Source of the DNA: Limisalsivibrio acetivorans
GTDB lineage: Bacteria > Chrysiogenota > Deferribacteres > Deferribacterales > Geovibrionaceae
Assembly: GCF_000421105.1 (NCBI RefSeq)
Contig: NZ_ATWF01000001.1
Location: 840,930-904,929, forward strand
DNA length: 64,000 bases
Direction of reading: 5' to 3'
The translations under genes were made by a program, and so were the position numbers. The notes beneath the pieces are model-generated. The model saw nothing but the letters and a program-made list of their open reading frames with translations, was not told the origin of the DNA and ran no database searches. This document shows positions 8,590 through 15,266 of the stretch, piece by piece (position 1 is the first letter of the stretch; every line of letters starts with the position of its first letter).

Positions 8590-8830
8590 ACCCCTTCCCC
8601 CAGAAATAGCGTTTATCCGCAAAAAGCTGAATAAGACTGCGGCGAACTGATTATTAACAGTCGCCCGGTTTTTATTAATCATACGGAAATTATAATAGCT
8701 TTAGCTCTCTTTTTCAAACCAGCTTGCGAACCCTGTTATCAACAGAGACTTTTTAAGTGTTATCCTGTTTGAAATGGAGGGAATCTCTGGTAAAATCAGA
8801 AGTAAACAAAAAACATTTCGGAAGTGCACT
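8590..8830. promoter_or_regulatory. Divergent intergenic region between the sucrose operon and the PKD lipoprotein
   Basis: About 240 bases separate the two divergent signal-peptide genes and must hold both promoters. The region is AT-rich, with a TATAAT hexamer around 8691 on the plus strand. I cannot assign -35 boxes with confidence and see no clear operator. Confidence 0.4.
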
Positions 8831-11671
8831 ATGAGAAGATCTTTGCTGGCCGTTATTATAACAGTTCTGTTCACCTTTATGCTCACCGCAGGCTGCGGAG
8901 GGGGAGGTTCCTCCACTGCGGACAAGAAAGAAAGCGTTCAGCTCGCCTTAGGTAATGCTCTCCCGCTTGTGGAAGATGATATGAACCTTGGTCCGGTGAG
9001 CGTTGACAAGGTTTATCTGGACATCCTCAAAGAGGGGAGTGTGGATGTTAGAACGGATATAACATCTGCGATGATGCGTGGTGAGAGAAGTGTCAGCGTA
9101 GAGATAACCTCTGGTACGCAGTATGATTTTCGAATCAGAGCATACGGCAAAGGGTCTGATCTTCTATGCGAGGACAACGCCACCGCTTTCGTTGAAAGCA
9201 ACGCTGTTACAGAGATAGACCTCCTCTGTGCCTTTCAGGACCAGGGTGTTATCTCCTCGCTATTCTTTGAGATGTTCAGCTATCTGGACAGCGAACAGGT
9301 TACAACAGAAGGTTTCGGTGAGTTCCTTGCAGCAGACTTCGGAATGATGGACGGAATGGACAGAAGCACTTTCATAGATCAGATCGTTTACGATAACGAC
9401 CGTAACGGTCCCGCACCACTTCAGGACACCGAGGTAACAAAGCTGGAGAAGATATCGGATACTGAATACGAAGGCGTTGTAAAGGCAATATACGAGGACG
9501 GAACCACCGAAAGGTTGCGGGGAATAGTGAAGAACGAGAACGGCAACTGGTACATGGCTGGTAACGGAAAAGCATTCCACTCATGGGTCCGCAGTACCAA
9601 CGTCAAGGTGACAAAGGCGGACGATTCCGTTGTGAAGCTTGCCGGTCTTTTCATTGAAGCGGAGAATATGGGGGATAAGGACATATCCTACATAATGGTT
9701 GTGGGCGCCGGTCTCCCCGAAGGTGGGCTTAAACTCGTCCCCAACACCTATGACGACGAGCACAAGGGTTTTGTAATCGCAGAGTACTATAATGCAACGG
9801 ACACCGATCTCAGCAACATGAACCTTTACCGTATGCAGGATACGCAGATAACCCAGATATCAGACGGTTCGATGTATACATTCAACGCATACGACAATAA
9901 CGGTGACCTTACGGCATCCACCACCGAAAGCATCGGCGCAAGACCCTACACCACCGGTGAAATGACATCTGCCCTTTTTGCTATGCCGTCAGAGACCCTC
10001 AGCCACGATGCGGCGGAGTTCTTCACCAACCCCTTCACTGCGGAGATAAGCAACCCCGCCGGCTACACGCCCCTGAGGATGGAGGCGGAACTCTCCGCAT
10101 ACAGCGAAAGCGGACACTATGACGAATGGAAACAGCTCAGGGTGGACGGCAATGCTTCCGTATCCTTTAATACCGGAAGCCTCAGCGATACACCTATGCT
10201 CGCATACTTCAAGACAGTAGCACTCGACAGCAGCGGCAGAGCATCAGTCTGGAAGTGGTACGCCAAAAGCACATACGAAAATATACACCCCGTTGTCAGC
10301 ATATCCCAGCCGGCTGAGCCGACCGTTACCGCCGGCGTTGTCTTCGACCTGGTGGCCACAGCCTATGACGCAGACGGCCAGATCACAGGATGGAGCATAA
10401 ACTTCGGTGACGGAACGGTCATAACATCGGATGACAACATAACCCAGACCGTACAAAGGGAAAACAGCCTTACCTTCCACGCATCCCATTCATACTCTGA
10501 AAAGGGAACATACACTGTGACGGTTACAGCCTTTGATGACGCAGAGGGGAGCGGAACCACGACCGTATCCCTTAACGCCACAGAACCCCAGAACCCATTC
10601 GTTGTGGAGATACTTAACCCCTCTGACGGCGGAAGCTTCCAGACAGGAGAGAGCGTATATTTCAATGCAGACATACAGCCTGTGGAGGGGGAGAGCCTGA
10701 GCAGTGTCCAGTGGAGCTTTGGCGACGGGGGCTCATCAACGGATAACCCCACAAGCCATACATACAGCGCCGCCGGAACTTACAGCGTTCTTGTGGAGGC
10801 ATACGACACAGCCGGAAACTACGGATACGACTACACCACTCTCACAGTGGAGCAGGGGCAGACACCCCCGTCCGTTGAGATCCTGTCACCCGCAGACGGC
10901 TCCGTATTCACCATAACCGGCACAGGCATACCGGTAACCTTTGACGGTTCTGCAACGGACAGCGATGGAACCGTAAGCTCTATCAATTGGAGTTTCGGTG
11001 ACGGCGGCACAGCTTCCATTGAGGATCCCACCCATGAGTACACCACACCGGGAACTTACACTGTGAGCCTCACAGCTGTGGATGACGATAACCTCACCAG
11101 CACAGACAGTATCAGCATAACCATTGATTCCTCAGGTACAGCACCGACAATAAGCATTACGGAGCCCACTGACAATGCAGAGGTTTACAAAGGAACGGAT
11201 GTGACATTCAAAGCCACAGCATCGGATCCGGATGGTGGAGCTGTTACCATAGGATGGGATTTCGGAGATGGAAGCTATGGAAGTGGAGCTGAAACAACCC
11301 ACCCCTTCAACTCCACAGGCACATACACCGTTCAGGCGAAGGCGGAGGATGAGGACAATATGACAACTACCGCTTCGGTTACCATTAAGGTTATTGAGTC
11401 CAACTCTCCTCCATCGGTGACAATACTTGAGCCCGGCAACGGAAGCACCTACTACACCCATGAAACAATAAACTTCGATGCCTCGGCCACAGATCCCGAA
11501 GGGGACAGCATATCAAGCGTTCAGTGGTTCTTCGGTGACGGCAACACGGCTGGAACCTATAACGCATCTCACTCGTATCCAACTGCAGGGACCTACACAG
11601 TGAAGTTCCAGGCAACGGACTCCAACGGCAACACAGGGGAGAGCACCATATCAATCTCCATACTACAATAA
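8831..11671 (+). CDS. Surface lipoprotein with five C-terminal PKD domains
   Basis: About 946 residues from the ATG at 8831 (GGAAG seven bases upstream). The start gives a lipoprotein signal peptide ending in LTAGC, followed by a Gly/Ser linker, so it is lipid-anchored and probably surface-exposed. The first half (about 450 residues) is unrecognised. The second half is five tandem PKD-type Ig-like domains, each with a W-x-FGDG core and a GTYTV strand. Such domains usually act as spacers or in protein/carbohydrate binding. No protease or glycosidase motif is evident in the N-terminal half. A strong terminator follows, so this is a single-gene unit. Confidence 0.85.
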   Translation: MRRSLLAVIITVLFTFMLTAGCGGGGSSTADKKESVQLALGNALPLVEDDMNLGPVSVDKVYLDILKEGSVDVRTDITSAMMRGERSVSVEITSGTQYDFRIRAYGKGSDLLCEDNATAFVESNAVTEIDLLCAFQDQGVISSLFFEMFSYLDSEQVTTEGFGEFLAADFGMMDGMDRSTFIDQIVYDNDRNGPAPLQDTEVTKLEKISDTEYEGVVKAIYEDGTTERLRGIVKNENGNWYMAGNGKAFHSWVRSTNVKVTKADDSVVKLAGLFIEAENMGDKDISYIMVVGAGLPEGGLKLVPNTYDDEHKGFVIAEYYNATDTDLSNMNLYRMQDTQITQISDGSMYTFNAYDNNGDLTASTTESIGARPYTTGEMTSALFAMPSETLSHDAAEFFTNPFTAEISNPAGYTPLRMEAELSAYSESGHYDEWKQLRVDGNASVSFNTGSLSDTPMLAYFKTVALDSSGRASVWKWYAKSTYENIHPVVSISQPAEPTVTAGVVFDLVATAYDADGQITGWSINFGDGTVITSDDNITQTVQRENSLTFHASHSYSEKGTYTVTVTAFDDAEGSGTTTVSLNATEPQNPFVVEILNPSDGGSFQTGESVYFNADIQPVEGESLSSVQWSFGDGGSSTDNPTSHTYSAAGTYSVLVEAYDTAGNYGYDYTTLTVEQGQTPPSVEILSPADGSVFTITGTGIPVTFDGSATDSDGTVSSINWSFGDGGTASIEDPTHEYTTPGTYTVSLTAVDDDNLTSTDSISITIDSSGTAPTISITEPTDNAEVYKGTDVTFKATASDPDGGAVTIGWDFGDGSYGSGAETTHPFNSTGTYTVQAKAEDEDNMTTTASVTIKVIESNSPPSVTILEPGNGSTYYTHETINFDASATDPEGDSISSVQWFFGDGNTAGTYNASHSYPTAGTYTVKFQATDSNGNTGESTISISILQ
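10290..11668 (+). repeat. Five tandem PKD-domain repeats within the lipoprotein gene
   Basis: Five units of about 255-295 bases start near 10290, 10600, 10867, 11142 and 11410. Each encodes a (V/T)-x-I-x-x-P opening, a W-x-FGDG turn and a GTY-(T/S)-V strand. Protein similarity is clear but DNA identity is only moderate, so these are old duplications rather than a recent expansion. Confidence 0.8.
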
Positions 11672-12667: not shown

Positions 12668-13804
12668 TTACTTATCCGAACCTTTGGCAGGCTTTGGGCT
12701 CTTTGTCCCCTTGAACTCAAGGTAGAGCTTCTGGAACATCACAAAAAGAACAACAAGCATGAGAACCAGAAACGCTATAAACATACCGAAGGAACCCCAC
12801 TGGGCATCTACGATAAGGCCGTTGTAGTCGAAGTATCGGGAGAAATAGCCGTGTTCGACGGTCCTGCGAACCAGAAGCATGGAAATAATCGCCACAAGCA
12901 TAAGAGCGGTAACATGTGTTGTGTCCGCCTTCTTGTTCTTCCAAACAATAATAGCAGCGGCAAGCCCTGTTACTATACCGATAAACAGAAATGCCGTTCC
13001 TATCATACTTCTGCCCATGAGGAGCATAAGCAGGTCTCTGTCATGGGACAGAAGGAACCATATTCCTATGGGGATCTGCATGAATGTGGACCAGACGAAT
13101 GCCTTCGCACCGAAGTCCTTCATCTCTTTCTTAAACTCGGGAGTATACTTCTTTCTAAGCTCAGAATAGATCATAAGAAAGAGACCCGTTACGGCTATGG
13201 AAGCGAAGGTGAAGTGAAGGTAACGGGGTATTATCGTATCCAGACTGAAGGCGGAACGCTCTCCTGTATAGATTGCAGCCCACTTTTCGGGCTGCAGCGA
13301 AAGGAGAGTGTTTGTAACAAGCATAAACGCCGTAAGCATGAAGAGAACAGCCGCAGCGGTTATGAAGAAGCCGCCTCCGTCCACCCTGTGCTTAAGGTAG
13401 CCCGGTTTAAACTTGTAAACATAGTAGCCGTAATAGCCCAGAATTATATAGGCCAGAACGAAGAGCCACTTCCATCCCAGGATAATCGAGGATGAATAGA
13501 AGAACTGACCGTATATAACCTGCAGAAAGAGCAGAGGTGCAACCCCTGTGGTTATCGTGAGCGAGATATTGAAGGTATTAACCCATCCGATCTCGCCAGC
13601 TATCTTAGTATAGTTTTCATTCCCCACATTCCGGCCGAAAAATCTTGCCAGAACAAGGAGTATACTCCCGCCAAGGGTCAGGTTCACAAAAAGGATGTGC
13701 AGGAAGAATGTGAACACATAGAAGAAGATGAAGACCATCGTGTGGCTGGGGAGCGGAACCGCATCGGGTGCGGGTATCAGTGAGAGAATTCTTTCCATTT
13801 CCAT
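12668..13804 (-). CDS. Membrane subunit of a cytochrome bd-like complex (CydA-related, no haem c)
   Basis: A 378-residue protein with about nine hydrophobic helices. Its first helix (FLHILFVNLTLGGSILLVLA) closely follows the CydA helix I pattern, in which the His ligates a haem b, and further membrane His residues appear (for example PRYLHFTFAS). It lies 14 bases after the larger subunit gene and is clearly its partner. I read it as the second subunit of a bd-superfamily oxidoreductase rather than a canonical CydB. The C-terminal tail is Lys/Pro-rich and cytoplasmic in type. Family assignment is by pattern only; haem ligands need alignment. Confidence 0.6.
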   Translation of the reverse strand: MEMERILSLIPAPDAVPLPSHTMVFIFFYVFTFFLHILFVNLTLGGSILLVLARFFGRNVGNENYTKIAGEIGWVNTFNISLTITTGVAPLLFLQVIYGQFFYSSSIILGWKWLFVLAYIILGYYGYYVYKFKPGYLKHRVDGGGFFITAAAVLFMLTAFMLVTNTLLSLQPEKWAAIYTGERSAFSLDTIIPRYLHFTFASIAVTGLFLMIYSELRKKYTPEFKKEMKDFGAKAFVWSTFMQIPIGIWFLLSHDRDLLMLLMGRSMIGTAFLFIGIVTGLAAAIIVWKNKKADTTHVTALMLVAIISMLLVRRTVEHGYFSRYFDYNGLIVDAQWGSFGMFIAFLVLMLVVLFVMFQKLYLEFKGTKSPKPAKGSDK

Positions 13805-13818
13805 TTTATCGCTCCTCC

Positions 13819-15087
13819 TTAATTAACCGTATCGGCGAGATACTCAGCCAATGCTTCACGTTCTTCATCCGTTCCCACAAAGGGTGGCATAAGCGGATTG
13901 GCATCCAGATACATGAACATATCGTTGAGATCTGCAGCCTCCAGACCCTCTATTAGCGGCGCAAGGGCGTTGAAATCGTACATATCATGACAGATGTTGC
14001 ACTGCGCCTTGTATACGGCAAAACCTATCTCCTTGGTGCTCGTATGCTCCTCAACGTTTGCCCATTTCGCCTTCGAAAGGATACCCTCCTCATTCAGCTT
14101 GTCCACCTCGGAGAGAAGGATACCGTTGGAGTACATGTAATCCCTTATGATATAGGGCTTACGCACTCGCTCTCTGGTGAACTCGTAGTAGCCGAAGCTT
14201 GTGAGGCCGAGAGCCATGATGACAAAAGCCACTATCACATGGTTAAATTTGGGAAACAGGAGGTTGAAGAAAACACCCAGAGCCGCTGTTATGAGCGTAA
14301 ACAGAGCCGCATTCTGATAGAAGCCGCTGAGGGTCTCGTTACCTCCGAAGAAGTTTGCACGAACCTCTTCGGGTATGGAATAGCTCCACCAGTACATGCC
14401 GATATAGGCGATTATCGTACCCGCTACGATGAACCATCCTGTAAAACGCCCCATCTTGACCTTTACTTCCTTGTCTTTGGTGAGCGCAACCACAACACCG
14501 GCATATATTCCTGCTATGAGAAGGGCTACGCCGGTTCTTCCTATGAGCGAGGGCCAGAACGTTGCGTTAAAAAATCCGTCCCAGAAGGAACGTGTCTCAA
14601 CCCAGTTTCCGGTGGTGAGCTGGAAGGTGATGATGCCGTTGATGATAAAAAGGCTCATCCATGCGGAGATAAAGTAGATCCATCCTATAAAAACATGAAA
14701 CTTGTCGCTCACCTTACCCCATGTGTAGTAATAGATAAGCAGAGCAACAATCTCAAGGACGAAGAACGTCCACTCCGATGCCCAGCCCCATACATAGATG
14801 TGTATCAGCGCCGATGTTCCCGCCGGAGAAACCAGAGCGATGCTGAACCATATACCCACACCGGTGAGTGCTCCGATAACGGCGGAAACCAGAAGGAGCA
14901 TAAGGGCGTTCCTGCGCACAAACTCCCTAAACGACTGATCTCCCGTCTTGATAGATTTCTTTTCAGCCAGAACAATATAAAGACCCATACCCACGGCAAA
15001 ATGGGATATGAATACGTGGATAACGGCGATGGTGGCAATAACCATCGCACCCCCTATCCCCGGGATATACCACAGTGGATAATCCAT
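13819..15087 (-). CDS. Cytochrome bd-like membrane subunit fused to a C-terminal c-type haem domain
   Basis: A 422-residue protein. I chose the ATG at 15087 because GAGGAGGG precedes it; the frame is open further upstream without a good start. About eight transmembrane helices occupy residues 1-330, with His residues in helix I (IAVIHVFISHFAVGMG) and helix III (LIHIYVWGW) in positions like those of CydA. After the last helix comes a cytochrome c-like domain with one CXXCH site (CNICH) and a likely distal Met in LMPPFVG. Canonical CydA has no haem c, so electrons probably arrive through or leave from this domain on the periplasmic side. The substrate could be oxygen or another acceptor. The pair resembles the non-canonical bd-superfamily branches more than quinol oxidases. 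Confidence 0.65.
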   Translation of the reverse strand: MDYPLWYIPGIGGAMVIATIAVIHVFISHFAVGMGLYIVLAEKKSIKTGDQSFREFVRRNALMLLLVSAVIGALTGVGIWFSIALVSPAGTSALIHIYVWGWASEWTFFVLEIVALLIYYYTWGKVSDKFHVFIGWIYFISAWMSLFIINGIITFQLTTGNWVETRSFWDGFFNATFWPSLIGRTGVALLIAGIYAGVVVALTKDKEVKVKMGRFTGWFIVAGTIIAYIGMYWWSYSIPEEVRANFFGGNETLSGFYQNAALFTLITAALGVFFNLLFPKFNHVIVAFVIMALGLTSFGYYEFTRERVRKPYIIRDYMYSNGILLSEVDKLNEEGILSKAKWANVEEHTSTKEIGFAVYKAQCNICHDMYDFNALAPLIEGLEAADLNDMFMYLDANPLMPPFVGTDEEREALAEYLADTVN

Positions 15088-15266
15088 AAAACCCTCCTCT
15101 AAAAGAATTGCGTTGTGCATAAAGCGGCTGTTTTTCATGAAATTAAGGCAGATAGCGATGTAAGTCCGCAATACAGCTTGTAAAAACAACCATTTTAATT
15201 GTACCATTTCAGTATCAAACTTCAAAGATAATCGGATTCTTTTTAAAACTTTTCAGGGGTGCTCTC

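Follow-up and report, generated by a model that had tools for sequence, protein, structure and literature searches.

A conserved pair of CydA-like proteins, one with a fused cytochrome c domain, as a probable cytochrome c-fed oxygen reductase

The cytochrome bd superfamily was split by Murali et al. (2021, ISME J 15:3534) into the branches qOR, OR-C and OR-N; as far as this work is reported in later papers (PMC10839748, PMC13189123, PMC8509429), neither OR-C nor OR-N has a quinol site, cytochrome c is their probable donor, and OR-N1 is believed to form a CydAA' complex with OR-N2. According to a 2021 review, all characterised bd-type cytochromes were quinol oxidases and an enzyme with another donor was still to be obtained (PMC8509429). 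The literature searched yielded no bd enzyme with a non-quinol donor since that review and no bench study of any member of the broader family to which the gene pair described here belongs. OR-C is the branch of the superfamily with haem c, and it is presumably the likelier home of this pair, given the fused haem c of the latter. To judge from its sequence, the pair lies within the non-quinol branches (OR-C/OR-N), which were predicted by phylogenomics.

The pair was found in a stretch of 64,000 nucleotides of Limisalsivibrio acetivorans DNA (the window). An earlier note, made from the letters of the window, had described a two-gene unit at positions 12668-15087, and both open reading frames were confirmed there on the minus strand:

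13819-15087, minus strand: gene 1 (P0002, 422 aa), predicted CydA-like catalytic subunit with 8 TM helices and a periplasmic C-terminal cytochrome c domain
12668-13804, minus strand: gene 2 (P0001, 378 aa), second CydA-like paralogue (A') with 9 predicted TM helices

The two coding sequences are separated by 14 bp. Each is preceded by a strong Shine-Dalgarno sequence, GAGGAGGG at 15092-15099 for gene 1 and AAGGAGGAG at 13812-13820 for gene 2, the latter overlapping the gene 1 stop codon. An origin as chance ORFs was ruled out by the Pfam matches, the Shine-Dalgarno sites and the cross-phylum conservation of the pair; a 468-aa version of gene 1 beginning at an upstream TTG was likewise rejected because the homologue starts correspond to the ATG at 15087, which bears the Shine-Dalgarno sequence. 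The pair is otherwise alone in the window, with a convergent ZIP transporter gene on one side and a divergent glycosyltransferase gene on the other. Since the neighbours differ among relatives, they were dropped as a functional hint, with the exception of the embedded bc genes described below. Elsewhere in the window (8774-11671, plus strand) a predicted lipoprotein of 965 aa with repeated PKD-like domains was recognized by eye.

Gene 1 matched the Pfam CydA family (PF01654, E = 5.8e-12, above the curated cut-off) and, over residues 354-417, a cytochrome c family (PF13442, 2.6e-6). Plain PDB sequence searches with the single proteins gave no match; the family profiles did match, that of gene 1 retrieving Geobacillus CydA (PDB entry 5doq, 2.3e-6) together with cytochromes c6. 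An AlphaFold model of the protein (5 sequences, single chain, mean pLDDT 66.5) contained eight long helices and had CydA chains as its top structural matches (9r2g_A, E = 2.7e-7); most of the TM part of this model was confident, and the cytochrome c domain had low pLDDT and was not confidently placed. The positive-inside rule groups the domain with the periplasmic loops. Assignment to the haem-copper oxidases was rejected, neither protein of the pair having a PF00115 match. Ligand positions in E. coli CydA were taken in part from established knowledge. Their numbering follows PMC6853902, and conservation in gene 1 was counted over 82 distinct homologous loci:

13837-14028, minus strand: cytochrome c domain of gene 1, residues 354-417 (PF13442 match)
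13987-14001, minus strand: haem c attachment motif CNICH, residues 363-367; C363, C366 and H367 in 82/82 homologues
13888-13890, minus strand: M400 (MPPF), presumed distal haem c ligand; Met in 73/73 homologues reaching the column
15016-15018, minus strand: H24, aligned with E. coli CydA H19; 81/82 homologues
14773-14775, minus strand: E105, equivalent to E. coli E99 in the CydA alignment; 81/82 homologues
14170-14172, minus strand: E306, equivalent to E. coli E445, within E-x-x-R-x-P[YF/W]; 79/82 homologues
14536-14538, minus strand: R184, at the position of the CydA b558 ligand H186; Arg in 82/82 homologues

The C-terminal CXXCH motif and Met-Pro-Pro-Phe ligand pointed out in the earlier note were seen as C363-x-x-C366-H367 and M400-P-P-F. 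When the larger protein was examined for the bd haem ligands and the GRxPW motif, as that note had suggested, H24, E105, E112, E306 and the RxP[YF/W] motif were found to be kept and the b558 His to be replaced by Arg in all 82 homologues. E112 corresponds to E. coli E107 (kept in 79 of the 82), and its spacing of seven from E105 is Geobacillus-like, the spacing of eight in E. coli being owing to a Leu101 insertion that is absent here; R309-K-P-Y is the equivalent of GRxPW, with R309 and P311 invariant (82/82). No conserved His was found at residues 176-195 among the 82 homologues. The TM6-TM7 loop, which is the site of the Q-loop in CydA, measures 23 residues, and the Q-loop is absent from both P0001 and P0002. 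Because of this short loop and the invariant Arg in place of the b558 His, the canonical quinol site is taken to be absent from gene 1, which, on its alignment to CydA, retains the predicted O2-site ligands. Among Acidobacteriota homologues of gene 1, a second or third C-terminal CXXCH domain is common (22 of 45 with two or three motifs; L016, L017, L018 and L061-L075).

The smaller protein scored below threshold against PF01654 (E = 0.12). By hhalign, the gene 2 family matched CydA with a probability of 69% (E = 5.7e-6), with H36 falling on CydA H19, and the gene 1 family with 98.7% (E = 1.5e-15); comparison with CydB gave 0.4% and no match. This value, together with the occurrence of the pair in CydB-less genomes, ruled out P0001 as a CydB. 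A fold model of moderate quality (5 sequences, single chain, mean pLDDT 63.8) contained nine helices, and its ten best PDB matches were all cytochrome bd chains. The earlier view that both proteins are CydA-like is borne out, since both fold models match CydA structures, not an unrelated membrane cytochrome family, and hhalign links the two families with each other and with CydA. A joint tree of both paralogues and CydA was too diverged to resolve (support of 0.24 for monophyly of the larger family). The following residues of gene 2 were considered:

13697-13699, minus strand: H36, at the position of CydA H19; His in 79/80 homologues, with one gap
13214-13216, minus strand: H197, at the position of the CydA b558 ligand H186 in the hhalign alignment; co-occurs with M309
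12878-12880, minus strand: M309, presumed Met partner of H197 by co-occurrence

No conserved Glu was found among the homologues at the E99 or E445 positions. H197 and M309, which sit on different predicted helices, are both present in 66 of the 80 homologues and both missing in the other 14, with no mixed case; of 3,188 column pairs tested, no other shows a perfect correlation (the next highest value being 0.87), and by parsimony on the tree the two residues were lost together in four separate events. The simplest reading of this pattern is that the two residues would be the His/Met axial ligands of one low-spin haem. M309 is not strictly equivalent in position to the canonical Met, since M393 lies on helix 7 and M309 on predicted helix 8.

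Homologues were compared at 85 loci from Deferribacterales-like genomes, Acidobacteria, Thermus and Alphaproteobacteria. At 82 of these the two genes are adjacent on one strand or have only bc genes between them (65 in the order gene 1-gene 2, six reversed and 11 in the order gene 2-Rieske-cytochrome b-gene 1); one of the other three loci is cut by a contig end. The full pair is present in ten genomes of the host's order, and 66 of 297 Acidobacteriota genomes (about 22% of those sampled) contain homologues, as do one deltaproteobacterial MAG and plasmids of Thermus (L048), Agrobacterium (L049) and Methylosinus (L050). Four genomes with the pair (G012, G017, G024 and G030) are without any CydB (PF02322). 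On the plasmids the public names of the pair members are `cytochrome c', `c-type cytochrome' and `hypothetical protein', the first of these being given in Thermus and Methylosinus to the larger protein and the last to the smaller; owing to such generic names for both proteins, a capacity for oxygen respiration may be overlooked in Acidobacteria. Downstream of the pair in Agrobacterium and Methylosinus lie a histidine kinase gene and then a short response regulator gene, a Fis-type DNA-binding domain being found in the Agrobacterium regulator; in Methylosinus the pair is also accompanied by a gene for a small cytochrome c and by the methanobactin genes, and in Thermus it is preceded by a ZnuA-like gene. 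In three families of the order the pair has a large ribonucleotide reductase gene next to it or close by (L053, confirmed by Pfam; L056, L057, L058 and L060, by sequence similarity).

The four-gene operon gene 2-Rieske-cytochrome b-gene 1 occurs at 11 loci of one clade of Acidobacteriota (L105, L106, L107, L109, L110, L111, L112, L113, L117, L118 and L144), and its Rieske and cytochrome b genes were confirmed by Pfam in L105. No other CXXCH protein is encoded in these 11 operons, the few further CXXCH frames nearby being outside the cluster or on the other strand, and the haem c of gene 1 would thus take the usual place of cytochrome c1. H197 and M309 are lost in ten of the 11 operons, which fits a haem c that serves as the electron entry and a b558-like haem that is dispensable with a bc complex attached. 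It is possible that the four-gene operon encodes a complex III-bd supercomplex.

The homology, conservation, ligand pattern, lack of a Q-loop and of CydB, conserved pairing and bc-linked operons were computed directly, and on them we base the proposal that the pair is probably a CydA-A' heterodimer which reduces O2 with electrons from cytochrome c or a bc complex, not from quinol. O2 as the substrate is assumed by analogy with bd enzymes. Electrons would be supplied by a periplasmic cytochrome c or directly by a Rieske/cytochrome b complex and would enter through the C-terminal, periplasmic haem c of the larger subunit; the suggestion in the earlier note that the pair may take electrons from periplasmic cytochromes gains support from the position of this haem c, the absence of a Q-loop and the bc-linked operons. 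From haem c the electrons would presumably move to the neighbouring haem at E306 and on to the haem that reduces O2 (H24/E105), all in gene 1. Since the cytochrome c domain directly follows the helix with the E445-type ligand, the fused haem c could feed the di-haem site (H24, E105 and E306) of the same subunit. The gene 2 product would stand in the structural place of CydB; in the host it probably binds a low-spin b-type haem (H197/M309), as a b558 relic or relay, and perhaps also a haem at H36. Candidate roles for the b558-like haem are those of a relay, a reservoir or a second entry point. Protons would be taken up from the cytoplasm as in bd, and charge separation is therefore expected without pumping.

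A more specific evolutionary reading is put forward tentatively, as plausible but somewhat doubtful: two CydA paralogues may have come to share out the bd haem set, the catalytic paralogue retaining the O2 site and having a fused cytochrome c in place of b558, and its partner retaining only a b558-like His/Met haem. In the acidobacterial clade the pair may have merged with Rieske and cytochrome b to give one complex III-bd unit, with the haem c of gene 1 doing the work of cytochrome c1 and the b558 relic gone from most members. If true, this would represent a bd enzyme that uses cytochrome c, and a III-IV supercomplex based on bd, not on a haem-copper oxidase.

The pair is not the sole oxidase of its host, as a caa3-type oxidase cluster (with the one COX1 of the genome, not at the pair) and a canonical CydAB are also encoded. 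The canonical cydAB genes lie far from the pair, and the earlier statement that no cydB is present holds for the two-gene unit but not genome-wide. Ccm proteins are encoded in the host. A single bc-type cytochrome b was detected in the host genome, and as an ExtS-like multihaem cytochrome (selenite/tellurite operon) is encoded next to it, it is no more than a possible donor for the pair there. It lies in the region G000:C1:1398000-1406000 (L104), which contains putative molybdopterin oxidoreductase, ferredoxin-type and NrfD-type genes, directly followed by Rieske, cytochrome b and ExtS-like multihaem cytochrome c genes. The other 11 genomes of the host's family encode caa3-type and cbb3 oxidases and not the pair, whereas the host has the pair and no cbb3; this contrast speaks for the reading of the pair as a cytochrome c-fed O2 reductase but amounts to one event within the family. 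Across 46 genomes of the order the pair and cbb3 show a weak negative association (P = 0.02-0.03, with kinship ignored). Two nearly complete genomes (G020 and G025) contain the pair and no haem-copper oxidase. In the cbb3-type clusters of the order (L175, L176 and L177), ccoN is accompanied by a gene for a FixO-cytochrome c fusion, and the stretches read contain no ccoP as a gene of its own.

Three other functions were weighed against a cytochrome c-fed O2 reductase. The pair could be a quinol oxidase with a new quinol site near the H197/M309 haem of the smaller subunit, from which electrons would pass to the larger subunit, with the haem c as a relay or second entry. Such a haem leaves room for quinol oxidation, its two ligands co-occur perfectly, as the axial pair of a haem at the CydA b558 position should, and they are mostly lost precisely where the clade's own bc complex would handle quinol oxidation. 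Neither protein has a Q-loop, however, and the Thermus and Methylosinus pairs have lost H197 and M309 while lacking adjacent bc genes, so that the enzyme apparently works without these ligands; we consider a quinol oxidase unlikely.

The bd-type di-haem site could also serve a cytochrome c-fed reductase of another acceptor, such as NO or peroxide. Enzymes of the bd type are established to react with both, many relatives of the host among the Deferribacterales are anaerobic, and in one relative an Rrf2-type regulator gene lies just upstream of the pair. This possibility is nevertheless judged very unlikely, given that none of the bd O2-site ligands is missing, that the family is common in Acidobacteria and also found in Thermus and Methylosinus, which are largely aerobic groups, and that no denitrification genes were recognised beside the pair in the regions read. 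A function as a cytochrome c:quinone oxidoreductase (an alternative complex III working in either direction), not as a terminal reductase, would agree with the presence of haem c and, possibly, of a low-spin haem b; such a role was at one time proposed for bd-like proteins in nitrite oxidisers (PMC3578206). The near-invariance of the terminal-site ligands and the lack of an evident quinone site speak against it, as does the clade with an operon-encoded bc complex, which would need no second quinol:cytochrome c enzyme, and it appears highly improbable.

With the predicted OR-C and OR-N enzymes the pair shares the CydA core, the lack of a quinol site, a predicted cytochrome c donor and two CydA paralogues (OR-N1 and OR-N2). 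With canonical CydAB (E. coli bd-I and Geobacillus bd) it shares the fold, the ligands H19, E99, E107 and E445 and the GRxPW motif, but it is without CydB, the Q-loop and the b558 His of the catalytic subunit and has an added haem c. Archaeal CydAA' (Caldivirga) likewise consists of two CydA paralogues without CydB; it is reportedly a quinol oxidase with b haems only and no haem c, whereas CXXCH is present in all 82 gene 1 homologues. The cbb3 and caa3 haem-copper oxidases probably do the same job, a cytochrome c-fed reduction of O2 with haem c in the complex, but their folds are unrelated to that of the pair. Bacterial bd-like oxidases comparable to the pair are described from Nitrospira, Nitrospina and Manganitrophaceae (PMC6606698, PMC3578206 and PMC9040806). 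The described Nitrospina bd-like protein has 14 predicted helices, in contrast to the eight helices, fused c domain and conserved second CydA paralogue of the pair. A ligand set divided between the two subunits, and Rieske and cytochrome b genes placed between the two subunit genes, were not found described in the accessible literature and, as far as that literature shows, are additional to the known predictions. Several relatives reside in culturable genera (Thermus, Agrobacterium and Methylosinus), which makes the donor question testable. Since OR-C and OR-N were already predicted, the pair represents a further member of a predicted and biochemically uncharacterised kind, for which it offers a compact two-gene candidate for a bd enzyme with a non-quinol donor.
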